Shown: positions 2,888-20,197 of the stretch, one piece after another | Layout: each line of letters opens with the position of its first letter | Position numbering within the stretch: position 1 is the stretch's first letter | NCBI GenBank assembly: GCA_002753505.1 | Contig: PEAG01000026.1 | Span: 1 to 41,063 of the forward strand | DNA from: Magnetococcales bacterium HCHbin5 | Lineage (GTDB): Bacteria; Pseudomonadota; Magnetococcia; Magnetococcales; Magnetaquicoccaceae | Length of the DNA: 41,063 nucleotides | Direction: 5' to 3' | Notes under the pieces: model-generated | Told to the model about the DNA's origin: nothing | What the model saw: the letters and a program-made list of their open reading frames with translations, nothing else | Databases searched by the model: none | Position numbers and translations under genes: made by a program

Positions 2888-3781
2888 CTATTCGATCCGA
2901 TAGCTGCTGGGCGTCCCTGCATTGTGCGGCATGCGCACCACGTTCAAGCCCAATCTCTTCTTGAGGGCACCGGCCAAGACGCCCCTCGATGTGTTCGAGT
3001 TCCAGCCGGTCGTTTCGCTGATCTGCTCAATGGTGGCCCCCTCCGGACGCCGCAGCATGGCAATCACCTGCGCCTGCTTGCTGTTCTCCCGGGTGCGGCA
3101 GATAGTGGAGGGTTGCGGCTTTTTCTGCTTGGCCTCTACGTGACCCAGCATGTAGGCGTCCGTCAGGGCGTTCCTGATCCAGGGCCAGTTTTCGGGAGTC
3201 ACCAACTCCTCCGGCAGGTGCTTCCGTGCGATCCGCAAATAGTCCTCGTCAGCCTCCAGGAGGATGTTGGGGTTTCCAGCCTCTGCCAGATCCTGCTCTG
3301 CGGCGGCGACATCCGCTTCAAAGTCGGCATCTGCAGGCACTTCGTCGTCTTCCGTCCGGGGCAAGTCCGCCGGATCCATCGGGATGATGATCCCAATGGG
3401 AGGAGTGTCGTAGTCGTCCGGGCCGTCCGGCTCTTCGCAGGCGGCGGCCATCTCCTCGTGGTAGGCTGCATCCTCGGCAGGCATGTTGTCGTTCCATGCC
3501 TGCACGACGGCATCGTCGCTGAAGTCCGGTCCGGGACCGTGGGCAGGCGGTTCGTCTTCAATTTCCGCAGGGTGTTCCATGCCGATGGCAGTGTAGCCCG
3601 CTTTGGTGATGCGCCAGACGTCGGTTTCGATCTCTTCGATCAGACCCTGTTGGTGCAATGCCTTCATCACCTTTTTGGCAGCACCGCCCTTGACGTTGCC
3701 CGGCAGGGGGTGGATGGAACCGTTGGGGCGTTTAGCGGCGGCTTCCAGGGTGATTTGTTGGGTTTCAGTCAGGTTGCTCAT
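2888..3781 (-). CDS. DUF3489-like DNA-binding protein
   Basis: A 297-aa reverse-strand protein with two probable winged-helix ends and an acidic middle. The N-terminus (1-75, MSNLTETQQITLEAAAKRPNG onward) reads as a wHTH with a GGAAKKVMKALHQQGLIEE recognition region. Residues 80-180 are very acidic and proline-rich, probably flexible. The C-terminal 65 residues (SKQAQVIAMLRRPEGATIEQI, then TGWNSNTSRGVLAGALKKRLG) match the DUF3489 pattern. The ATG at 3781 has a good site (AAGGAG, 7 bases); the 23 in-frame codons upstream look non-coding. It probably regulates transcription or binds phage DNA, but its target is unknown. It reads away from terL, so the region between holds divergent start signals. 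Confidence 0.7.
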   Translation of the reverse strand: MSNLTETQQITLEAAAKRPNGSIHPLPGNVKGGAAKKVMKALHQQGLIEEIETDVWRITKAGYTAIGMEHPAEIEDEPPAHGPGPDFSDDAVVQAWNDNMPAEDAAYHEEMAAACEEPDGPDDYDTPPIGIIIPMDPADLPRTEDDEVPADADFEADVAAAEQDLAEAGNPNILLEADEDYLRIARKHLPEELVTPENWPWIRNALTDAYMLGHVEAKQKKPQPSTICRTRENSKQAQVIAMLRRPEGATIEQISETTGWNSNTSRGVLAGALKKRLGLNVVRMPHNAGTPSSYRIE

Positions 3782-3913
3782 CTTGGTGCTCCTTCTGGTT
3801 GGTTGTCTTCCTTGGACACCATGAAGCCATACACTGCCAGACACCATCAAGCATAATATGTTGTTTTTGAATCAATTTATAACCGTTTTCCCGGTCGAAA
3901 AAGGAACCATTCG
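3782..3913. promoter_or_regulatory. divergent intergenic region
   Basis: A 132-bp gap separates the reverse-strand DUF3489-like gene from terL. Its right half (about 3850-3885) is markedly AT-rich against GC-rich flanks and contains -10-like boxes (ATAATATG, TTATAAC). I cannot assign a clean -35/-10 pair. TerL has AAGGAA eight bases before its ATG. Promoters for both directions are expected here from gene orientation. Confidence 0.35.
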
Positions 3914-5839
3914 ATGCCTGGCAACACCCTGTCGCTTTCCTATAGTACCGCCTTCCAGCAGGGGTTGAAGCCGGATCCGTTGCTGACGGTCTCTGCCTGG
4001 GCGGACCAGTATCGAATGCTCTCTTCGGTGGCCTCCGGAGAGCCCGGCCTTTGGCGCACCAGCCGGACTCCGTACCTTCAGGAGATCATGGACTGCCTGT
4101 CGCCATCGTCGCCGGTGGAGCGGGTGGTGTTCATGAAAGGGGCGCAGTTGGGCGGGACCGAGGCGGGCCTCTGCTGGCTGGGATATGTCATCCATCAGGC
4201 TCCCGGTCCCATGTTGCTGGTGCAACCCACGGTGGAGACCGCCAAGCGGCATTCCAAGCAACGCATTGATCCGCTGATCGAGATCAGTGCCGTGTTGAAG
4301 GATCTGGTGAAGGATCCCCGATCCCGTGATTCTGGCAACACCATCCTGGGAAAGGAGTTCCCCGGTGGCGTTCTGATTTTGACCGGAGCCAACTCGGCGG
4401 TTGGACTGCGCTCCATGCCCATCCGCTACCTGTTCATGGATGAGATCGACGGCTATCCCGGTGATGCCGATGGCGAGGGGGATCCGGTGGCATTGGCCAC
4501 CCAACGCACGGTCACCTTCGCCAACCGCAAGATTCTGATGGTCTCGACCCCCACCATCAAGGGGTTCAGCCGGATTGAGGCGGCCTATCAGGAGAGCGAC
4601 CGGCGACGCTACTGGGTGCCCTGTCCAGCCTGCCAAGCCCTGCAGGTGCTGGAGTGGAAACAGATGCGTTGGCCCGAAGAAGATCGGGAGCAGGCTTTTT
4701 ACGAGTGCATTCATTGTGGCTTCCCCGTCCAGGACCATCAAAAAGGATGGATGCTGGCGCACGGTCAATGGATTGCGGAAAACCCGGGCGGCAGCAAAGT
4801 GGCGGGGTTTCATCTGTCCAGCCTCTATTCTCCGCATGGCTGGACCTCCTGGGGCGACATCGCCGTGGAGCATGGGCAGGTTTATCGTGATCCCCCCCGA
4901 CTGAAAGTTTGGGTCAACACCAAGCTAGGTGAAACCTGGGAGGAGAGTGCCGAGCAGCTGGATGGTGAGGGGCTGATGGCGCGGCGGGAGATGTTTGGCC
5001 CGCTGCTGCCACCCGGCATTGTCCTCCTCACCGCCGGTGTCGATGTCCAGGATGACCGCCTGGAGTTGGAAATCGTCGGCTGGGGCCGGGATGAAGAGTC
5101 CTGGTCGGTCGCCTACTGGGTATTGTGGGGCGATCCGGCCGGGCCTGCGGTTTGGCAGGATCTGGAAAACATCCTGTACCGTGCGTACCCCCATGCCAGG
5201 CAGGTGTCCGACCTCTACGTCCGGGCGGCTGCCATCGACACCGGTGGTCACCGCTCCATGGAGGCCTACACCTTTTGCCGCGCCCGGCAGGAACGGCGCA
5301 TCTGGGCCGTCAAGGGGCTGGGCGGCATGGGCAAACCCATCTGGCCGCGTCGTTCCAGCCGCAACAACAAGGGACGGGTGCCCCATTTCATGGTGGGTGT
5401 GGATGCGGCGAAAGAGTCCATCTATTCCCGCCTGCGCTTGAAGGAGCCGGGTCCAGGCTATTGCCATTTTCCCCTGGATCGGGATGCCGAGTGGTTCCGG
5501 CAGTTGACGGCGGAAAAGATCACCACCCGCTACAGCAAAGGCCGTCCCATCCGGGAGTGGGTCAAAAAGTCGCACGAACGCAACGAGGCGTTGGACTGCC
5601 GGGTTTATGCCATGGCGGCCCTGCACGGGCTGATGGGCATGGGGCTGCAGTTGAACAAGGAGGCCGACCAGCGTGAGCAGTATCCTCTGAAAGAGGGGGT
5701 GCCGTTGCCGGAGGTCGTTGTCGCCGCACCGAAGATCATCGAGCCGAAAAAGCCGAAGGTCATCGTTCCAAACAAACCTCGCAAGTCATCCTGGTTGGGA
5801 GACTTGCGTGAACGGTGGCAGGATGGGAGACGCAGATGA
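3914..5839 (+). CDS. large terminase subunit, GpA type
   Basis: The 641-aa ATP-driven packaging motor and nuclease, which cuts concatemeric phage DNA and pumps it through the portal into the prohead. The ATPase half carries a Walker-A-like loop MKGAQLGGTE at 74-83 and a Walker B LFMDEIDGYP at 173-182. A later ATSTPT-like coupling motif is seen as MVSTPTIKG. Cysteine pairs near residue 240 and 268 (CPACQ, CIHCG) are usual for the GpA family. The nuclease half begins around TAGVDVQDDRLELEIVGWG. The length is close to lambda gpA (641 aa). The C-terminal tail is lysine- and proline-rich. Its stop overlaps the next start (ATGA). Confidence 0.95.
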   Translation: MPGNTLSLSYSTAFQQGLKPDPLLTVSAWADQYRMLSSVASGEPGLWRTSRTPYLQEIMDCLSPSSPVERVVFMKGAQLGGTEAGLCWLGYVIHQAPGPMLLVQPTVETAKRHSKQRIDPLIEISAVLKDLVKDPRSRDSGNTILGKEFPGGVLILTGANSAVGLRSMPIRYLFMDEIDGYPGDADGEGDPVALATQRTVTFANRKILMVSTPTIKGFSRIEAAYQESDRRRYWVPCPACQALQVLEWKQMRWPEEDREQAFYECIHCGFPVQDHQKGWMLAHGQWIAENPGGSKVAGFHLSSLYSPHGWTSWGDIAVEHGQVYRDPPRLKVWVNTKLGETWEESAEQLDGEGLMARREMFGPLLPPGIVLLTAGVDVQDDRLELEIVGWGRDEESWSVAYWVLWGDPAGPAVWQDLENILYRAYPHARQVSDLYVRAAAIDTGGHRSMEAYTFCRARQERRIWAVKGLGGMGKPIWPRRSSRNNKGRVPHFMVGVDAAKESIYSRLRLKEPGPGYCHFPLDRDAEWFRQLTAEKITTRYSKGRPIREWVKKSHERNEALDCRVYAMAALHGLMGMGLQLNKEADQREQYPLKEGVPLPEVVVAAPKIIEPKKPKVIVPNKPRKSSWLGDLRERWQDGRRR

Positions 5840-7510: not shown

Positions 7511-9548
7511 ACAGATCGATCTGCCGATGCAGGTCAGGTCGGCCAATTTTGTTCCAGGAACGGTGAACGGCGAGGAGCGCACCGTCGAGATGGTCTGGTC
7601 CACCGGAGCCTCTGTGCGCCGGACCGACTGGCGGACCGGCAAGCCGTATGACGAGACCCTCTCCGTCGATGCTGCGCATGTGGAGCTCTCCCGTTTGAAC
7701 AGCGGGGCACCCCTGTTGAACAGTCATGATGCCTCGTCCCTGGACAGCATCCTGGGAGTGGTGGAACGGGCCTGGATCGCCAATGGAGAGGGGCGCGCCG
7801 TGGTGCGCTTTTCCAGCCGGGACGGGGTTGCCGCCATCTTCAAGGATGTCCAGGAAGGCATCCTGCGCAACGTCTCGGTGGGCTACGTGGTGCGCCAATA
7901 TGAAGTCACCGAAGAGCGCGGCAAGGTTCCTCTCTGGCGGGCAGTGGATTGGATCCCCCTGGAGTTGTCCGCCGTGCCGATTGGTGCCGACCCTGGTGCA
8001 GGCTTCCGTTCCGACGAACCCACCAAACACCCCTGTCAACTGACCCAAATCAGAGGAGCTGATGAAATGCCCGAACCCGTAAAGACTGAAGTGGCGGCAG
8101 AGCCTGTCGCCGAAGTGGCCACCCGTCAAGCGACGGATGTGCCTGTGCTGGCCAAACCTCAGGAAGAGACGACGGTCCGATCCACCACCCCGGCCAAGCC
8201 CGTCGCCCCTCCTGCACCGACCCGTTCCACCAGCGCAGAGGAGGCCGAAATCATGACCCGGCAGGCGGTGGCCGCCGAGCGGCAACGGACGGTGGACATC
8301 TACGATGCCCAGGAGAAGTTGAAGGTGGACCGCAGCTTTGCTGACAGGCTGGTGAAAGAGGGTGTCGGTCTGGATGAAGCCCGCCGGAGCCTTATCGATG
8401 AGGCGGCCCGTCGTTCCAGCAGTGCTGGCGAGATCCGCAACCATGTGGTGATGACCGGTCAGGATGAGCGGACCTCTCGCAACGCGGCGGTGGAAAATGC
8501 CCTGCTGCATCGTTTCGACCCGACTGCGCACAAACTCTCCGATGCCGCTCGTGAATGGCGTGGCCTGACCCTGTTGGAGATGGCCCGCATGTTTGTGGAG
8601 AGCAGTGGTGGCGGGGTCCACACCACCCGGGGATTGACTCGGTACGAACTGGCCACCCGCGCTCTGCACACCGAGTCGGATTTCCCGAACATTCTGGCCA
8701 ATGTGGCCAACAAAACCCTGCGCACCGCCTACGAAGCCGCTCCACGCACCTTCCAGCCGTTTTGTCGGCAAGTGACTGCCAGCGACTTCAAGGCCATGTC
8801 CCGGGTGCAGTTGGGCGAGGCTCCGGCCCTGGACAAGGTCAACGAGGGTGGCGAATACAAACGGGGGCCGCTCGGCGAGGGCAAGGAATCCTACCGAGTG
8901 GAGACCTATGGCAAGATCATCTCCATCTCCCGGCAGGTGCTGGTCAACGATGACCTGAATGCCTTCACCCGCATCCCGCAGTTGTTCGGGGTGGCAGCGG
9001 CCAACCTGGAGAGCGACGTGGTGTGGGGCATTATCACCGCCAACCCGAACATGGGGGATGGCGTCGCCCTGTTCCATGCCAGTCACAAAAATCTGGCAGC
9101 GTCTGGTGCCGCCATTTCCGTTGCCACCCTGGGTGCTGCCCGCAAGAGTATGGGTACTCAGACCGGGGTGGATGGCCAGACTATCATCAATGTCCGCCCG
9201 GCCTTCATCATCGTTCCGGCGGCTTTGGAGGTGACTGCCGAGCAACTGCTGGCGGTGAACATGGTTCCGGCCAAATCCACCGATGTGGTGCCGCAGTCCC
9301 TGCGCACCCTGACGGTGATCGCCGAGCCGCGTCTGGATGCCGCCGTCAATGGCGACAAGGCGTGGTACATGTCGGCCAACCCGGGCCAGATTGACACCAT
9401 CGAATACGCCTATCTGGAGGGCCAGAACGGAGTCTATATCGAAACCCGCGTCGGCTTTGACGTGGACGGGGTGGAGATCAAGGCCCGGCTGGACTTTGGG
9501 GCCAAGGCCATCGACTGGCGTGGCCTGTTCAAAAATCCTGGTTTGTAA
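7500..9548 (+). CDS. prohead protease / major capsid fusion
   Basis: A 682-aa polyprotein that combines the capsid maturation protease with the shell protein. Residues 10-170 form an HK97/S78-type serine protease: the putative catalytic His is in PLLNSHD (about 76) and the Ser in RNVSVGY (about 126), followed by ELSAVPIGAD. A linker of about 170-260, rich in proline, threonine and alanine, then a coiled segment act as scaffold. From about residue 330 to the end is the capsid protein (ALLHRFDPTAHKLSDAA onward, with a late TLTVIAEPRLD segment). The ATG at 7500 has GGAG and overlaps the portal stop. Separate genes are the usual state; fused versions are known. The protease is expected to cut itself and the scaffold away after assembly. 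Confidence 0.93.
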   Translation: MPHKQIDLPMQVRSANFVPGTVNGEERTVEMVWSTGASVRRTDWRTGKPYDETLSVDAAHVELSRLNSGAPLLNSHDASSLDSILGVVERAWIANGEGRAVVRFSSRDGVAAIFKDVQEGILRNVSVGYVVRQYEVTEERGKVPLWRAVDWIPLELSAVPIGADPGAGFRSDEPTKHPCQLTQIRGADEMPEPVKTEVAAEPVAEVATRQATDVPVLAKPQEETTVRSTTPAKPVAPPAPTRSTSAEEAEIMTRQAVAAERQRTVDIYDAQEKLKVDRSFADRLVKEGVGLDEARRSLIDEAARRSSSAGEIRNHVVMTGQDERTSRNAAVENALLHRFDPTAHKLSDAAREWRGLTLLEMARMFVESSGGGVHTTRGLTRYELATRALHTESDFPNILANVANKTLRTAYEAAPRTFQPFCRQVTASDFKAMSRVQLGEAPALDKVNEGGEYKRGPLGEGKESYRVETYGKIISISRQVLVNDDLNAFTRIPQLFGVAAANLESDVVWGIITANPNMGDGVALFHASHKNLAASGAAISVATLGAARKSMGTQTGVDGQTIINVRPAFIIVPAALEVTAEQLLAVNMVPAKSTDVVPQSLRTLTVIAEPRLDAAVNGDKAWYMSANPGQIDTIEYAYLEGQNGVYIETRVGFDVDGVEIKARLDFGAKAIDWRGLFKNPGL

Positions 9549-9581: not shown

Positions 9582-9911
9582 ATGCGAAATTACATCCAAC
9601 CGGGCGACACCGTCACGGTAGTCGCCCCTGTGGCCGTGAACAGCGGTGACGGCCTGTTGGTCGGTACACTGTTCGGTGTAGCTCTCTCCACTGCCGCCAT
9701 CAGCACCAACGTGGAAATGATCACCGAAGGAGTGGTGGATCTGCCCAAGGCCGCCGTGGCCGTTACCCAGGGGGCCAAGGTTTACTGGGACAACACAGCC
9801 AAAAACGTCACCACGACCGCCACCAACAACACTCTGATTGGTTGCGCCATCCTGGCCGCTGCCGTTGGGGATGCCATTGTCCGGGTGCGGCTGAACGGGG
9901 TGGTGACGTGA
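9582..9911 (+). CDS. DUF2190 family head protein
   Basis: A 109-aa protein with the DUF2190 pattern: MRNYIQPGDTVTVVAPVAVN at the start, VEMITEGVVDLPKA in the middle, and KVYWDNTAKNVTT followed by LIGCAILAAAVGDAIVRVRL at the end. Members are small beta-barrel-like proteins next to capsid genes and are thought to be decoration or stabilising proteins on the shell. GAGGAAAA precedes the ATG. The gene lies 33 bp after the capsid gene and its stop overlaps the next start (GTGA), as expected in the head operon. Confidence 0.85.
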   Translation: MRNYIQPGDTVTVVAPVAVNSGDGLLVGTLFGVALSTAAISTNVEMITEGVVDLPKAAVAVTQGAKVYWDNTAKNVTTTATNNTLIGCAILAAAVGDAIVRVRLNGVVT

Positions 9912-10279
9912 ACAGGTGGGATAGCTTGTCAGGACTGGCGAACCGGTCGTGCCTAGCTACTTTCGGCACACCGGTCGCCTATCGTCCTGCCCTGCGCAAT
10001 CAGCCGAATCTGGCAGAGCAGTCATTTCCCATCACCGGCATTTTCACGGGAAAAAACCTCAACATCACCCTGATGGGTGCGGGTGCAAACGGCCTGGACG
10101 CCATTGTACCGCAACCCACCCTGGAAGTCCGCCTGTCGGATCTGGGTTTTCTTCCCATGACCGGTGACGAGGTGGCGGTGGATGGCCTCCTTTATCAGGT
10201 TGTGGAAGTCCAGCCTGATGGCAGGGGCATGGCACTATTGAGACTTGCCAGGCAGCCGGATCCATCCACAGGCCTGTGA
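9908..10279 (+). CDS. head-tail joining protein, FII-like
   Basis: A 123-aa beta-rich protein that I place with the lambda FII-like or other head-completion proteins. It has FPITGIFTGKNLNITLMG and a C-terminal GDEVAVDGLLYQVVEVQPDG strand pair. These proteins form the interface ring between the filled head and the tail. No good ATG exists at the N-terminus, so I chose the GTG at 9908, which overlaps the previous stop and keeps MNRWDSLSGLANRSCLATFG as the natural N-terminus. The ATG at 9842 would place 22 unlikely residues inside the previous gene. Function rests partly on gene order. Confidence 0.65.
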   Translation: MNRWDSLSGLANRSCLATFGTPVAYRPALRNQPNLAEQSFPITGIFTGKNLNITLMGAGANGLDAIVPQPTLEVRLSDLGFLPMTGDEVAVDGLLYQVVEVQPDGRGMALLRLARQPDPSTGL

Positions 10280-13024: not shown

Positions 13025-13070
13025 GATACCGACCCAATCCTTCCTGACGTCTGGTGTTTTGTAATCTTGA

Positions 13071-13096
13071 CCCCGCCTCGGCGGGGTTTTGTTTTT
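13071..13096 (+). terminator. Rho-independent terminator, left block of cassette
   Basis: CCCCGCC (13071-13077), two-base loop, GGCGGGG (13080-13086), then TTTTGTTTTT. A 7-bp perfect GC stem with a T run is a strong terminator. It ends 12 bp before the Mom-like gene, and a ribosome binding site (GGAGGG) follows directly. A near copy of the whole block lies at 17115-17147. Confidence 0.82.
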
Positions 13097-13108
13097 CTGG
13101 AGGGTGCC

Positions 13109-13573
13109 ATGCTCATCACCTATGAGTCCATTGACCTAGCAACAGCCAATGCCTGCCTGATCGCCTGGGAACATCGCATGGGGCCCCTGCGGCGTGGCAA
13201 CCAACGTGGCGTGCATCACGGGCTGTTCCACGACGGTCAACCCGTAGCGGTTACGATGACATCAACCCTCATCCGTGAGCGAGTTGGCGGTGTAGATGGG
13301 TTGGATAGGAACAATACGGTGGAACTCTCGCGGTTGTGCGCAGCACGACCGGGCCTATGCCGCGTTGCTCTGCGTTTGTGGCGGGAATTCGTTTTTCCCT
13401 TTTTGGACGGCGGCTATCTGTACGCCATCAGTTACCAGGATGCGGCACAGCACTCGGGCAACCTCTATCGGTTCGATGGCTGGCGGCGCGTTGGCTATTC
13501 CCACTCCGGGCGGGACACGAGATCCGGCAGACCCGGTCGGAACAAATATGTGTGGCTGTGGCAGCGACAGTAG
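13109..13573 (+). CDS. Mom-like GNAT transferase (DNA hypermodification)
   Basis: A 154-aa GNAT-fold protein resembling the Mom family of phage Mu, which modifies adenine in DNA to protect it from restriction. The strongest region is residues 103-130: YLYAISYQDAAQHSGNLY then DGWRRVGY, matching the Mom SYAD...HxGxxYxAxxW pattern. Upstream, ELSRLCAARPG at about 72-82 fits the ...EL.RLW... strand of the fold. The C-terminus is arginine-rich and aromatic (GRPGRNKYVWLWQ), suited to nucleic acid. I chose ATG 13109 because GGAGGG precedes it; the frame upstream runs through the terminator. It starts a three-gene unit with a radical SAM enzyme and a PP-loop enzyme. The substrate is not known. Confidence 0.72.
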   Translation: MLITYESIDLATANACLIAWEHRMGPLRRGNQRGVHHGLFHDGQPVAVTMTSTLIRERVGGVDGLDRNNTVELSRLCAARPGLCRVALRLWREFVFPFLDGGYLYAISYQDAAQHSGNLYRFDGWRRVGYSHSGRDTRSGRPGRNKYVWLWQRQ

Positions 13574-13879
13574 AGAGGGAACCCGATGATCATTCGACTG
13601 ACACAGCTCGATGGCAAGCTGCCGAATCTGGCCCTGATGCGACTGGCCAGTTATCACCGGCACCAGGGCGATGAGGTGGTCTTCACCCGGGAAGCGGCTC
13701 GCACCCTGTTTGAGCCTGCCTATGATCGTGTGTACGGATCGGTGATTTTCAACTCATCGGCCCATCTGGTGGAGCAGTTTCGTCGCCATTTCCCACAGGC
13801 CATCCTGGGGGGCACCGGTTCCGGGAATCTGCATACCGTTGAACAGGTGATCGGCCAGGAATGGGCACAGTTCGACTAT

Positions 13880-13896
13880 CCCGGATATTGCACGAA
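13880..13896 (+). repeat. left terminal inverted repeat of the IS element
   Basis: CCCGGATATTGCACGAA, identical to the reverse complement of the right end. The similarity continues imperfectly inward (TGGCGA some 5-6 bases further in both ends). Target duplication CTAT is at 13876-13879. Confidence 0.9.
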
Positions 13897-14048
13897 GGTC
13901 GTGGCGAGCTCCGGTTGAGAAATGTTGAGGGTGTGACATGCCGATTTTTCCAAAAATTTCCGCTTATGAAGCCAATTTTGCGGATTCAGGACACACCTCC
14001 CCCTTACCCCCATTATTTTTCCGGCACCGGGGACAGTGCCTGCCGTTC

Positions 14049-15359
14049 TTACCCTGTGCTGATCCGGAGGTAGACCTTTGCGAACAGATCTTGATAGGGA
14101 CAGGCACTGGAGAGAAGAAATCTGACCCGGCGGGTATTGCGCAGGACTATGGCACCGATCTTCAGCAACCGCAGACGGATCGTTGTGCATTGGGCGTGAG
14201 CCATCTCGGTGCCTGCCAACCCCAGGCGCCGAATCGCTTCGAGCAACATGTAGGCGAAGGTTGATAACAACAACCGAAACTGGTTGGGCCACCAGTTGTG
14301 GCAACTGGTCCGGTCGGCAAACAGTTGAAGTTGTTCCTTGATGCGGTTTTCCATCTCACCACGGGCACAATAGATACGGTCATACAGGATGCCGGCTTTT
14401 CCTTCCAGATTTGTCACCACAAAGCGGGGATTCTCACCTTTTTCCGAGTGTTCTGCACGGATGATGATCCGGCGTTCCCGTTTCCAGGAGGAGGCCGCAT
14501 AGTTGAGTTCGCCGAACAGACGCTGTTTCTCACCGGTGAGTTTAAATTCTTGTGCAGCCTGGCCGATCACATCGCACGAAAGCCTCTGCAAGCGGACGTT
14601 TCGGGCGATGCCGACGATGTAACCCACATCATTGCGTTCACACCATCCAAGCAACCAATGGCGGCAAAAGCCACTGTCCCCGCGAAAGATGATCCGCACC
14701 TGCGGCCACACATCCCGAAGCCGTCTCACCAGCCATTTCAGCATGGCTCCACTGTGTTTCATGGCGTCTATGTTGCTCGGGCGCAGATAGCTGACCAGAG
14801 GCTGATCCCCACAGAATACGTACAGGGGAAGAAAGCAGTAACTATCATAATATCCATGAAAAAATCGATATTCCTGTTTGCCATGAACTGGATCATCCGT
14901 GGCGTCGAAATCGAGAATCAACTCTTCTGGCGGTGTGGCATGGGAGGCAATAAACTGATCCACCATAATGTTGTGTAATGACCAGAAAATCTCCCGGTCC
15001 ATGGCATTCTCAAACCGGCACAGGGTTGAACTGCCCGCCAATACCTGCTCCCGATCGACACCTGTTTGAAAGCCAGGATCATAACGCAACATTTGGTGAT
15101 CGTTGAGATCCTCATATCCCAACGCCAACCCGAACAGACGCTGCCGCACAAGATCTATCGTGCTATGCGTCAATTTGTTCGGATCCCGTGAATCCTTCAG
15201 GCTCAGGGCAATCCGGGACGACAGCCCAAGGCGGCGATCCACTTGACGAAGAAGCAATATCCCGCCGTCGCTGGTTACGTCACCACCGCTGAATTCGGCT
15301 TCAACCTTGCGCCGTTTGCAGGCTGGAAATTCAAACAATCTTGGGGTACAATCTGTCAT
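14049..15359 (-). CDS. IS1380-family transposase
   Basis: A 436-aa DDE transposase with the IS4/IS1380 layout. The first catalytic Asp is in LDFDATDDPVHGKQEY (about residue 152), a signature of IS1380. The second Asp is in IIFRGDSGFCRHWLLGW (about 228). The Glu is in CARGEMENRIKEQLQLFADRTSC, the YREK-like Glu region. The N-terminus carries VTSDGGILLLRQVDRRLGLS, also family-typical. No frameshift or stop is present, so it should be active. It moves the element by cutting at the 17-bp ends and produces a 4-bp target duplication. Confidence 0.95.
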   Translation of the reverse strand: MTDCTPRLFEFPACKRRKVEAEFSGGDVTSDGGILLLRQVDRRLGLSSRIALSLKDSRDPNKLTHSTIDLVRQRLFGLALGYEDLNDHQMLRYDPGFQTGVDREQVLAGSSTLCRFENAMDREIFWSLHNIMVDQFIASHATPPEELILDFDATDDPVHGKQEYRFFHGYYDSYCFLPLYVFCGDQPLVSYLRPSNIDAMKHSGAMLKWLVRRLRDVWPQVRIIFRGDSGFCRHWLLGWCERNDVGYIVGIARNVRLQRLSCDVIGQAAQEFKLTGEKQRLFGELNYAASSWKRERRIIIRAEHSEKGENPRFVVTNLEGKAGILYDRIYCARGEMENRIKEQLQLFADRTSCHNWWPNQFRLLLSTFAYMLLEAIRRLGLAGTEMAHAQCTTIRLRLLKIGAIVLRNTRRVRFLLSSACPYQDLFAKVYLRISTG

Positions 15360-15430
15360 GGCGAAACTCCTCCTGGATCAATAGTGAACGAATTGATTTT
15401 ACAGGATTATAAGGAGTTTCGCCATTTTTA

Positions 15431-15447
15431 TTCGTGCAATATCCGGG
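15431..15447 (-). repeat. right terminal inverted repeat of the IS element
   Basis: TTCGTGCAATATCCGGG, the exact reverse complement of the left end. The second CTAT duplication follows at 15448-15451. A GTG inside it (15434) happens to be in frame with the right half of the radical SAM gene. Confidence 0.9.
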
Positions 15448-16142
15448 CTATAGCGATTACCCGGAGGTCAAGGAATCCATTGGCTTCACCCAGCGCGGAT
15501 GCCGGATGCGCTGCCGTTTTTGTGTTGTGCCTGAGCGGGAAGGCAAAGCACGGGCCACCCACACCATCCACCAAATCTGGCGAGGCCCTCCCCATCCACG
15601 CAAGGTCCATCTGCTCGACAATGACTTTTTTGGCCAACCTGAGTCGGCATGGCGGGCGCGCATAGGAGAGTTGCGAGAGGGCAGTTTCCGGGTCTGCTTT
15701 GGCCAAGGCATCAACGTGCGCTCCATTACGGATGAGCAAGCCGAGGCATTGGCCTCGGTCGAATATCGGGACACCAAATTTCAGCAACGGCGGCTCTATA
15801 CCGCCTGGGACAATCCAAGAGATGAGCAGCGATTCTTCATCGGAGTCAACACATTGGAGATGGCCGGAATCCCGCCCACACACCTGATGGCCTACATGCT
15901 GGTTGGCTTTGATCCAATGGAATCGTGGGACGGCATCCTGTCCCGGTTCAACAAAATGGTGGACCGGGGCATCAAGCCCTACCCGATGGTCTTCGATGCA
16001 GGGCGCAGGGACTTGAAGGCGTTCCAGAGATGGGTCGTCACGGGATTGTACCGGGCTTGTGCCTGGGAGGAATACCGGAGCAGCCAACAGAGTTCCGTCG
16101 TTCATTTGTCCAACAGCCGTTGGAAGAAAGAGGTATCAGCAG

Positions 16143-17165
16143 ATGGCAAGCCACTCGAAATCAGTGCTCACGGATGAGGAGCTGAAGGCCAGATATGCCT
16201 GGAGCCTGGACCGCAAGATTGAGGAGTCTTGTGACAGGATTGTGGACTGGCACTCCCGATTTGGCGGGCGGGTGTCCGTGTCCTTCTCCGGCGGGCTCGA
16301 CTCGACGGTGCTGTTGGATCTGGTACGGAACAAGTGCGGCTACCCGGATGTACCAGCAGTATTTTCCAACACCGGCTTGGAGTTTCCCGAAAACGTCCAT
16401 TTTGTCCGAAGCATCCCGAATGTCCATGAGATCCGACCCAGGCGGGGCTTTCGGCAAGTGATCGAGACCTTTGGCTATCCGGTGGTCAGCAAGCGCGTCT
16501 CCCAATATGTCGGCGAGGTACAACGCGCCCAGGGCGAGACGGCGACCAAACGGCTGCGCTTGACCGGGATGACTTCCCGTGGGACCAAGAGCCGCCTGGG
16601 AGAAATCCCGGATGTCTGGAAGCCGCTCGTCACTTGCGGCTTTCGGGTGTCGGACAAATGCTGCGATGTCCTCAAAAAAGAGCCTCTCGCCAGGGCCATG
16701 AAGCTGTTCGGTCCGCCGTTCGTCGGCACCCGGGCGGAAGAGTCCATGCAGCGGGAGCTTTCGTACAAACAGCATGGTTGCAACGCCTACCACATGCAGT
16801 CGCCCCGGTCGACACCGATTGCCTTTTGGACCGGCCAGGACATCCGGGAATACATCCAGCGAGAGTCGCTGCCGTACTCTCCCTTGTACGACATGGGCTA
16901 CGACCGCAGCGGCTGCATGTGGTGCCTGTTGGGTGCGCACCATGCCGATGACAACCGCTTCGAGCTGTTGGCCAAGACGCACCCAAGGGTGTACGCCTTC
17001 TGTCGGGACCGGCTCGGGCTGTTCGATGTGCTGCGTGTCGTGCAGACTTTGTGGAATGACCGGTATCGCAGGAAAAAGGTACCGCTACTTCCTTTACCCA
17101 GTCTGTTACCCACCAACCCCGCTCTGGCGGGGTTTCGTATTTCTGAGGGAGAGAAAGGGGGTTGA
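16143..17165 (+). CDS. PAPS-reductase-like PP-loop enzyme (DndC/CysH family)
   Basis: A 340-aa member of the adenine-nucleotide alpha-hydrolase group. The PP-loop SFSGGLDSTVLLDL is at 47-60, and TGLEFPENVHFV at 77-88 is the second nucleotide-site motif of the phosphoadenosine phosphosulfate reductase family. Cysteines in KCCDVLKKEPL and CMWCLLGAHH could carry sulfur or bind metal. Relatives activate a substrate by adenylation and often transfer sulfur (CysH, DndC, tRNA thiolases). Cellular target unknown. The ATG at 16143 has GAGG nearby and overlaps the radical SAM gene's end in another frame. The last ~16 codons run through a terminator-like hairpin. As third gene of the cassette, it may act with the Mom-like and radical SAM proteins. 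Confidence 0.8.
   Translation: MASHSKSVLTDEELKARYAWSLDRKIEESCDRIVDWHSRFGGRVSVSFSGGLDSTVLLDLVRNKCGYPDVPAVFSNTGLEFPENVHFVRSIPNVHEIRPRRGFRQVIETFGYPVVSKRVSQYVGEVQRAQGETATKRLRLTGMTSRGTKSRLGEIPDVWKPLVTCGFRVSDKCCDVLKKEPLARAMKLFGPPFVGTRAEESMQRELSYKQHGCNAYHMQSPRSTPIAFWTGQDIREYIQRESLPYSPLYDMGYDRSGCMWCLLGAHHADDNRFELLAKTHPRVYAFCRDRLGLFDVLRVVQTLWNDRYRRKKVPLLPLPSLLPTNPALAGFRISEGEKGG
17115..17134 (+). terminator. terminator-like hairpin, right block of cassette
   Basis: AACCCCGC (17115-17122), TCTG loop, GCGGGGTT (17127-17134), then TCGTATTT. It is nearly identical in order and spacing to the hairpin at 13071-13096, down to the following TTTCTG-AGGG. It lies inside the last codons of the PP-loop gene. The T run is weaker than in the left copy. 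Confidence 0.6.
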
Positions 17166-18625: not shown

Positions 18626-20197
18626 ATGGCAACCAGAAAACCGCTTTTCATGGGAGCAGACGGTCGCCCGACAGAGTTGTCTGCGGTGGACAGCATTCCG
18701 CTCAGCAATGTTTCGGAGATGGGAGCCGCCTCCGTCACCGTGGCCGGAACCGCCGGGGCCGTGCCTGCGCCACCCATCGGTGGACAGGTGATGTTCATTC
18801 GGGGGGACAAACAGTGGGTGGTACCAGACCATGCCTTGCTGGGCAATCTGCAGGGTGGCTCCTCCGGGCAATATTACCACCTGAACTCAGCCTACAATAC
18901 CGCGCTGACTGGCTTGACCACCACGGAGTTGGGATACCTCTCCGGTGTCACCTCTGCCATCCAAACCCAACTGGGTGGCAAGCAGGCCACCATCACCGGA
19001 GCGGCCACCACCATCACCGGCAGCAACCTGACCGTGAGCAGGGCGTTGGTGAGCGATGGCTCTGGCAAGGTCTCTGTCGCATCCGTAACCAGCGCCGAGT
19101 TGGGGTACCTCTCCGGTGTCACCTCTGCCATCCAGTCGCAGATTACCGCCAAGATGGCCAATCCCATGACGACGGCGGGGGATCTCTTGTACGGAGGGGC
19201 CTCCGGAACACCCACCCGCCTGGCCAATGGCAGTGCCGGGCAGGTATTGCAATCCCAGGGCGGCACCTCGCCTCCTGTCTGGGCGACTCCGGGCAGTGTC
19301 GGGGAACCGGCCTGGACGAGCCGCACCGCAGCGGCCAACAACGTCTGGCAGTCGGTGGCCTATGGCAATGGCATGTTTGTCGCCGTGGCCAATTCCGGTT
19401 CCGGCAACCGGGTGATGAGTTCACCCGATGCCATCAACTGGACGACTCGCGTCAGTGCGGCCGACATCCAGTGGGTTGGCGTCACCTACGGCAACGGTCT
19501 GTTCGTGGCGGTATCTCAGACCGGCACCAATCGGGTGATGACCTCTCCCGATGGCATCACCTGGACGCAGCGCAGTACCAGTGGCCTCGATTTCCAGTGG
19601 CAGTCGGTCTGTTACGGGGCCGGAAAGTTTGTGGCCGTCTCCTTGAGCGGCACCAATCAGGTGATGACCTCTCCGGATGGCATTACCTGGACCGGGCAGA
19701 CAGCGGCGGCCGTGCGGGGTTGGAAGAGCGTTATCCATGTTCCGGCATTGGGCCTGTTCATCGCAGTGGCCATGTCTGGTACCGGCAACAGGGTGATGAC
19801 CTCGCCTGATGCCATCACCTGGACCCTGCGTGCCAGTGCCAACGATGCCCTCGGCTGGACCGGTGTGGCCTATGGCAACGGCATTCTGGTCGCAGTCACC
19901 CAGGACGGCACCACCCAGCAGGTGATGACCTCCCCGGATGGCATTACCTGGACGCTTCAGACCACCCCCTACACCAGCATGTTTTTCTCGGCGGTTGTCT
20001 ACGGGCAGGGGCTGTTCATGGCCATCTCAACCAACGGCAGCATTGGTGGGGCCATGACCTCCATCGATGGTGTTTCCTGGACCGCCAAGAGTTCGCCCAA
20101 CTCAACCATCTCGATCACGGGCATGGGCTATGCCAACGGGGTGTTTATCGCGCTGGGCAGCAATCTGGTGCTGACACGCGGCACCATCATTTTGTAG
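18626..20197 (+). CDS. tail fibre with seven-repeat beta-propeller-like end
   Basis: A 523-aa fibre protein. The N-terminal part (1-40, ATRKPLFMGADGRPTELSAV) anchors; residues 90-185 carry two copies of the GYLSGVTSAI module, of which the second is part of SRALVSDGSGKV...SAELGYLSGVTSAI. From about residue 238 to 523 there are seven repeats of about 40-45 residues, each with W-x-x-V-x-YGNG-x-FVAV and SPDGITWT. That count suggests a seven-bladed beta propeller, similar to YCF48- or sialidase-type repeats. It is likely to contact the host surface, possibly a glycan. Start ATG 18626 has only GGGGTG upstream. Enzymatic activity is not evident. Confidence 0.7.
   Translation: MATRKPLFMGADGRPTELSAVDSIPLSNVSEMGAASVTVAGTAGAVPAPPIGGQVMFIRGDKQWVVPDHALLGNLQGGSSGQYYHLNSAYNTALTGLTTTELGYLSGVTSAIQTQLGGKQATITGAATTITGSNLTVSRALVSDGSGKVSVASVTSAELGYLSGVTSAIQSQITAKMANPMTTAGDLLYGGASGTPTRLANGSAGQVLQSQGGTSPPVWATPGSVGEPAWTSRTAAANNVWQSVAYGNGMFVAVANSGSGNRVMSSPDAINWTTRVSAADIQWVGVTYGNGLFVAVSQTGTNRVMTSPDGITWTQRSTSGLDFQWQSVCYGAGKFVAVSLSGTNQVMTSPDGITWTGQTAAAVRGWKSVIHVPALGLFIAVAMSGTGNRVMTSPDAITWTLRASANDALGWTGVAYGNGILVAVTQDGTTQQVMTSPDGITWTLQTTPYTSMFFSAVVYGQGLFMAISTNGSIGGAMTSIDGVSWTAKSSPNSTISITGMGYANGVFIALGSNLVLTRGTIIL

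Follow-up and report, generated by a model that had tools for sequence, protein, structure and literature searches.

The Mom protein of phage Mu is known as a solo enzyme, and its chemistry is unusual for a GNAT. It transfers an acyl group from CoA to the N6 of adenine (PMC7824862), which leaves a mark named ncm6A (PMC8281217). PAPS-reductase homologues have been noted in phosphorothioation and BREX, and DNA modification was independently suggested, from gene context, for the radical SAM module of Thermus phages Cumys/phiMa (PMC11437467). The locus described here resembles that module in being a phage radical SAM locus and differs from it in its partners, which are a Mom-like and a PP-loop enzyme rather than a DUF483 protein and another uncharacterised protein. 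Our literature search, which did not reach the principal publications about Mom or about predicted base-modification systems in phages, found no description of a Mom/PP-loop/radical SAM trio, so an earlier prediction is possible.

The window, i.e. the whole stretch of DNA analysed, is a 41,063-nt contig of Magnetococcales bacterium HCHbin5 (PEAG01000026.1) and was identified as a prophage, encoding terminase, portal, head, tape measure and tail proteins. An earlier note on this DNA had described three co-oriented genes among tail genes, and all three were recovered there: genes for a Mom-like, a radical SAM and a PP-loop protein form one block on the + strand (13109–17165) between two tail genes. 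Spacing within the block was operon-like, both in the window and in an intact relative, with a gap of 12 nt between the Mom-like and radical SAM genes and a PP-loop gene that starts before the radical SAM gene has ended. The block is bracketed by two 30-nt repeats on the + strand (direct repeat D18), each with a GC hairpin and 83% identical to each other. The left copy (13070–13099), directly 5′ of the Mom-like gene, consists of the hairpin followed by a T-rich tract and is terminator-like, and the right copy (17116–17145) lies within the 3′ end of the PP-loop gene. Elsewhere in the same prophage, a further modification gene encoding a ParB-domain/DNA methyltransferase fusion (1095–2450; phrog_498, E 7e-128) was found between the genes for the small and large terminase subunits. 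A 523-aa repeat protein, DUF6242-like and of beta-propeller type with a repeat spacing of about 126–132 nt, is encoded between tail genes at 18626–20197.

The first gene (ATG 13109 to stop 13573, + strand) is intact, encodes a 154-aa protein of the GNAT fold carrying SYQDAAQHSGNLY, and is a true, distant Mom. Its product matched the Mom-like family phrog_1384 (E 1e-6; Mu Mom itself, E 8e-84), and its AlphaFold2 model (pLDDT 88) displayed the GNAT order of strands and helices. A PDB-wide fold search with this model, the comparison the earlier note had proposed, ranked Mu Mom S124A first (8bv8_B, E 3.9e-7, TM 0.67), with ordinary GNATs close behind. Comparing the window Mom alignment with Mu Mom as a single sequence gave no signal, and profiles on both sides were needed: hhalign of the window Mom family (27 sequences) against 13 Mu-type Mom proteins returned a probability of 95.2% (E 2.8e-8, 130 columns) versus 0.2% for a reversed decoy. 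When phages were searched by tblastn, the window Mom likewise gave no match, although a search with Mu Mom matched 290 phages. In the profile alignment, Mu H58, R111, D149 and Y159 correspond to window H22, R75, D111 and Y120, within aligned motifs comprising a histidine, an ELxR arginine, an S-x-x-D aspartate and a G..Y tyrosine; H22, R75 and Y120 are invariant in the 27 window-type sequences. We take H58, Y59, R111, D149 and Y159 (241-aa numbering) to be active-site residues of Mu Mom, and S124 is named as a site in the PDB title of 8bv8. Alignment at the Mom residues, on which the earlier note had staked its reading, held for four positions; Mu Y59 is replaced by R23, and S124 falls in a gapped stretch. 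The two proteins share a GNAT fold, the aligned H/R/D/Y residues and a phage-borne gene, but the window protein is shorter (154 versus 241 aa), lacks the basic C-terminal part of Mu Mom and is only about 18% identical to it. The window locus also differs in having PP-loop and radical SAM partners and no com gene.

The third gene (ATG 16143 to stop 17165, + strand) is also intact and encodes a 340-aa PAPS-reductase-like PP-loop enzyme (PF01507, E 2.8e-26; phrog_424, E 2e-47). It carries the PP-loop SFSGGLDS (SGGLDS) and a CC...CxxC pattern, i.e. four cluster-like cysteines, the pattern of APS reductase and DndC; the second cysteine of the CC pair and both CxxC cysteines are invariant across 15 diverse relatives (alignment A4). 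Judged from its residues, the enzyme probably works like a CysH but is not a true PAPS/APS reductase: the PP-loop domain is present, but the C-terminal catalytic ECGxH segment is absent from both the translation and alignment A4, and genuine sulfate reduction was rejected on that account. The PP-loop SGGxDS is shared with phage PAPS-reductase-like proteins of phrog_424 and with DndC, SspD and BrxP (BrxP profile, E 5e-22), whereas the Dnd, Ssp and BREX partner genes are absent beside the window gene. Phosphorothioation of the Dnd/Ssp type was rejected, as the SspD match was weak (E 2.7e-5), the flanking genes were tail/structural genes and no DndD–DndE or SspB–SspC partners were found.

The second gene, encoding the radical SAM protein, is split in the window by an insertion sequence. 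Its 5′ part (13586–13879, + strand) encodes the N-terminal Rossmann-like domain, with residues 1–102 being 91% identical to an intact copy on another contig of the same genome (C42), and its 3′ part (15448–16177, + strand; 88% identical to the same copy) carries the CX3CX2C motif (GCRMRCRFC). The intervening 1.57-kb element (13880–15447) is IS1380-like and no part of the cassette. It ends in 17-bp inverted repeats (CCCGGATATTGCACGAA), is flanked by the 4-bp target duplication CTAT (13876–13879 and 15448–15451) and encodes a transposase on the minus strand (14049–15359; DDE_Tnp_1_4, E 1e-162). No intact radical SAM ORF exists in the window, and only the Mom and PP-loop enzymes can still be produced whole from this copy; intact radical SAM genes were found in loci L009 and L042. 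The intact protein is a member of phrog_9298 (E 5e-43), sharing with that phage family its profile, the CX3CX2C motif and the N-terminal Rossmann-like domain, from which the window copy differs in being disrupted. Across an alignment of 35 relatives, the three cysteines of this motif (C115, C119 and C122) were the only invariant ones. NCBIfam and the PDB gave weak matches to MiaB-type enzymes, and the best viral fold match of the model (pLDDT 88, including the N-terminal Rossmann-like part) was a tRNA methylthiotransferase (E 4e-6). In the PDB, no fold matched this model below 1e-3, sequence searches with Mom and with radical SAM yielded no helpful match, and dPPR matches of alignment profile A5 were discarded as repeat artefacts. 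Taken together, the family readings of the earlier note were borne out for all three proteins, namely a Mom-like GNAT (fold and profile), a radical SAM protein (CX3CX2C) and a PAPS-reductase-like PP-loop enzyme (PF01507).

Related copies of the block displayed heterogeneity in gene content, including within the window's own genome. The sister prophage C42 (L009) has an intact radical SAM gene, a Mom gene reduced to its last few codons and an insertion sequence within the PP-loop gene. This second element (L009, 6622–8117) differs from that in the window and encodes a 422-aa transposase; two unrelated mobile elements have inserted into the cassette within this one genome. Another sister, C151 (L007), has the PP-loop gene alone, without Mom and radical SAM, and its 5′ neighbour is a 68-aa ORF. 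This ORF (8541–8747) has no family match and stands in place of Mom and radical SAM just 3′ of a hairpin of the same type. In a further copy (C141) the contig ends inside the PP-loop gene. In a second genome of the genus (G001:C146, present as L042 and L081) the whole trio is intact in the same slot, with Mom at 3335–3799, radical SAM at 3812–4831 and PP-loop at 4797–5819 of L081, and in a third (G002) the radical SAM and PP-loop copies run into contig ends. Since sister prophages of one genome have lost or disrupted different genes (C42, C151), the parts of the cassette are separable. The search for an adjacent trio with an intact radical SAM gene, suggested in the earlier note, was successful in L042/L081, though these belong to the same Magnetococcales phage lineage. 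Neither of the outcomes that the note had named as refuting its proposal was observed, as the genes do occur together elsewhere and the GNAT protein does align with Mom.

Purifying selection on the three genes is strong, and their coding is not due to chance. Mom was the most constrained (dN/dS 0.03–0.07 against relatives), followed by the PP-loop gene (0.07–0.09 against relatives) and the intact radical SAM copies (0.13–0.14), in comparison to 0.18 for a neighbouring tail gene. Because these values are well below 1, the genes are in use and not decaying, the recent insertions aside.

We further investigated the occurrence of the three families in other phages. Both the PP-loop and the radical SAM family show wide diversity, and each scan retained its best 80 loci; for radical SAM, the collection came to 126 non-redundant loci (<80% identity), drawn from phages and from bacterial contigs belonging to many phyla. 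With the trio lineage excluded, PP-loop ORFs occurred at 0.038 per kb at distances of up to 1.5 kb from the radical SAM gene (13 ORFs) versus 0.0043 per kb at 1.5–8 kb (5 ORFs), an enrichment of about 9-fold (binomial P about 1e-5). These ORFs were all on the same strand, in both gene orders, and represented several PP-loop subfamilies. Such pairs were found next to DNA methyltransferase genes, in the orders PP-loop, radical SAM, C5 methyltransferase (L118); C5 methyltransferase, PP-loop, radical SAM (L029, Dulem virus 39); C5 methyltransferase, radical SAM, PP-loop, with a NADAR gene following at 9671–10228 (L064); and D12 methyltransferase, radical SAM, PP-loop (L338). Counted among the 25 commonest Pfam families listed, where one protein may score twice, DNA methyltransferase matches numbered 16 in the 150 genes adjoining radical SAM versus 4 in 150 farther genes (Fisher test, P = 0.009), and the neighbours of Mom had a similar DNA-methyltransferase flavour in the Pfam scan. 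ORFs of GCxxCYA type (DUF5131-like), possibly a second radical SAM type, were also seen near Mom or a radical SAM/PP-loop pair (L253, 9486–10667; L255, 9410–10387; L338, 6542–7576), and DUF5131 accounted for three Pfam matches among Mom neighbours.

Mom was likewise found beside both enzymes. Starting from the window-type PP-loop enzyme, a Mu-type Mom lay immediately upstream in four of the best 80 loci, two of these being closely related, and in single loci of the same set a Mom lay about 3 kb off or a radical SAM gene adjoined. Starting from Mu-type Mom, a PP-loop gene was directly downstream in 3/48 non-redundant loci, with none elsewhere within 5 kb. One such locus, from IMG/VR, has the order mom, mom, PP-loop, ParB with overlapping ends (L429, 2–3826). 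Tandem duplicates of Mu-type Mom followed by PP-loop and ParB-type genes were also observed in L417/L418. For window-type Mom, a PP-loop gene of another subfamily overlaps it in L255, and a radical SAM gene directly precedes it in L011; for Mu-type Mom, a radical SAM gene is found 1.8 kb upstream of a ParB–Mom pair (L440). A PP-loop gene also adjoins window-type Mom in a different phage region of the window's own genome (L041, contig C125, 1–6139), which carries a second Mom, 91% identical to that of the window. The order there is AAA/SMC, a 536-aa C5 cytosine methyltransferase, an 89-aa gene, a different PP-loop gene (PHROG 424, E 5e-69), Mom and a primase-like zinc-finger ORF in another frame. 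Each of the three pairs therefore recurs in unrelated phages. Outside one Magnetococcales phage lineage, the best 80 loci per scan contained pairs but not the whole trio, and searching phages at the DNA level with the flanking tail region gave no match. Around 90% of radical SAM loci had no PP-loop neighbour and most Mom loci had neither partner nearby. As most loci lack partners and the full trio is confined to one lineage, this is a modular association and not a fixed pathway.

Based on the recurrence of the pairs beside DNA methyltransferase and ParB genes, the Mom fold, the layout of the block and the selection acting on it, we propose, with a probability of about one half, that the block marks phage DNA, as a modular anti-restriction DNA-modification cassette in which the other two enzymes add to or alter the marks. 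The cassette would be a phage moron, an accessory block between tail genes flanked by terminator-like hairpins, that may shield phage DNA from host restriction enzymes. By analogy with Mu Mom, the Mom-family enzyme would be the base modifier, probably acting on the N6 of adenine via an acyl-CoA. That same DNA is the most likely substrate of the PP-loop and radical SAM enzymes, which may tailor the Mom group or set a second mark, the former through ATP activation with sulfur or nitrogen transfer and the latter through radical methylation or methylthio-type chemistry. We infer DNA as the substrate of the cassette, and likewise the order of its steps and its product. DNA modification, the role that the earlier note had assigned to the genes, is thus the most likely one given the pairwise association and the methyltransferase neighbours; its idea of one joint system of three was not supported, the trio having been found in a single lineage. 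Joint action is also counted against by the fact that Mom works alone in phage Mu, and a shared DNA-metabolism region can instead reflect the clustering of morons.

It is possible, at a lower level of confidence, that three independent accessory genes share one hairpin-bracketed slot, with only Mom modifying DNA (a Mu-like N6-adenine mark) and the PP-loop and radical SAM genes forming one or more separate modules with unrelated targets. Consistent with this, Mom stands alone in most loci, across head, replication and tail regions, different subsets were kept in the sister prophages, and Mom is by far the most constrained of the three. However, PP-loop genes of different subfamilies lie beside Mom in two separate Mom families, and Mom adjoins radical SAM in two other cases, with far fewer expected from chance placement. 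We consider it unlikely that the enzymes act in sequence on phage DNA. In such a scheme, the PP-loop enzyme would activate or thiolate the Mom group, the radical SAM protein would next methylate or methylthiolate it to give an undescribed hypermodified adenine, and phages carrying fewer of the genes would produce simpler intermediates. A longer three-enzyme pathway to a new, perhaps sulfur-bearing base, as the earlier note had suggested, was not upheld by a trio found in one lineage, a Mom that mostly stands alone, sister prophages with subsets and a broken radical SAM gene.

Modification of RNA is a still more doubtful role for the radical SAM and PP-loop enzymes, which would carry out a methylthio- or thio-type tRNA modification, tuning translation in the course of infection or evading tRNA-cutting defences, next to Mom as a separate DNA modifier. 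The methylthiotransferase fold match and weak MiaB-type matches of the radical SAM protein point this way, as does the occurrence of tRNA thiolases among PP-loop enzymes with cluster cysteines. However, methylthiotransferases carry a second cluster, whereas the radical SAM alignment retains only the three CX3CX2C cysteines, and the neighbouring genes encode DNA methyltransferases, ParB and SSB rather than tRNA or RNA-repair functions, save for two HAD_SAK_2 matches. Finally, a role in auxiliary metabolism (sulfate/PAPS reduction), or in modifying the adjoining tail proteins, as the profile names (PAPS_reduct; ‘moron, auxiliary metabolic gene’) and the placement among tail genes might suggest, is very improbable given the missing CysH segment, a GNAT fold nearer to Mom than to any protein acetyltransferase, and relatives of all three genes in the DNA-metabolism and head regions of other phages.

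That Mom lies next to a PP-loop Fe-S-type enzyme in unrelated phages, and in some cases next to a radical SAM protein, provides Mom with concrete partner genes. It also gives a testable function to phrog_424 and phrog_9298, two large phage families whose annotation goes no further than ‘PAPS reductase’ and ‘radical SAM’. Should the genes turn out to build upon each other, they would represent a novel way of making modified DNA bases and a novel chemistry against restriction.
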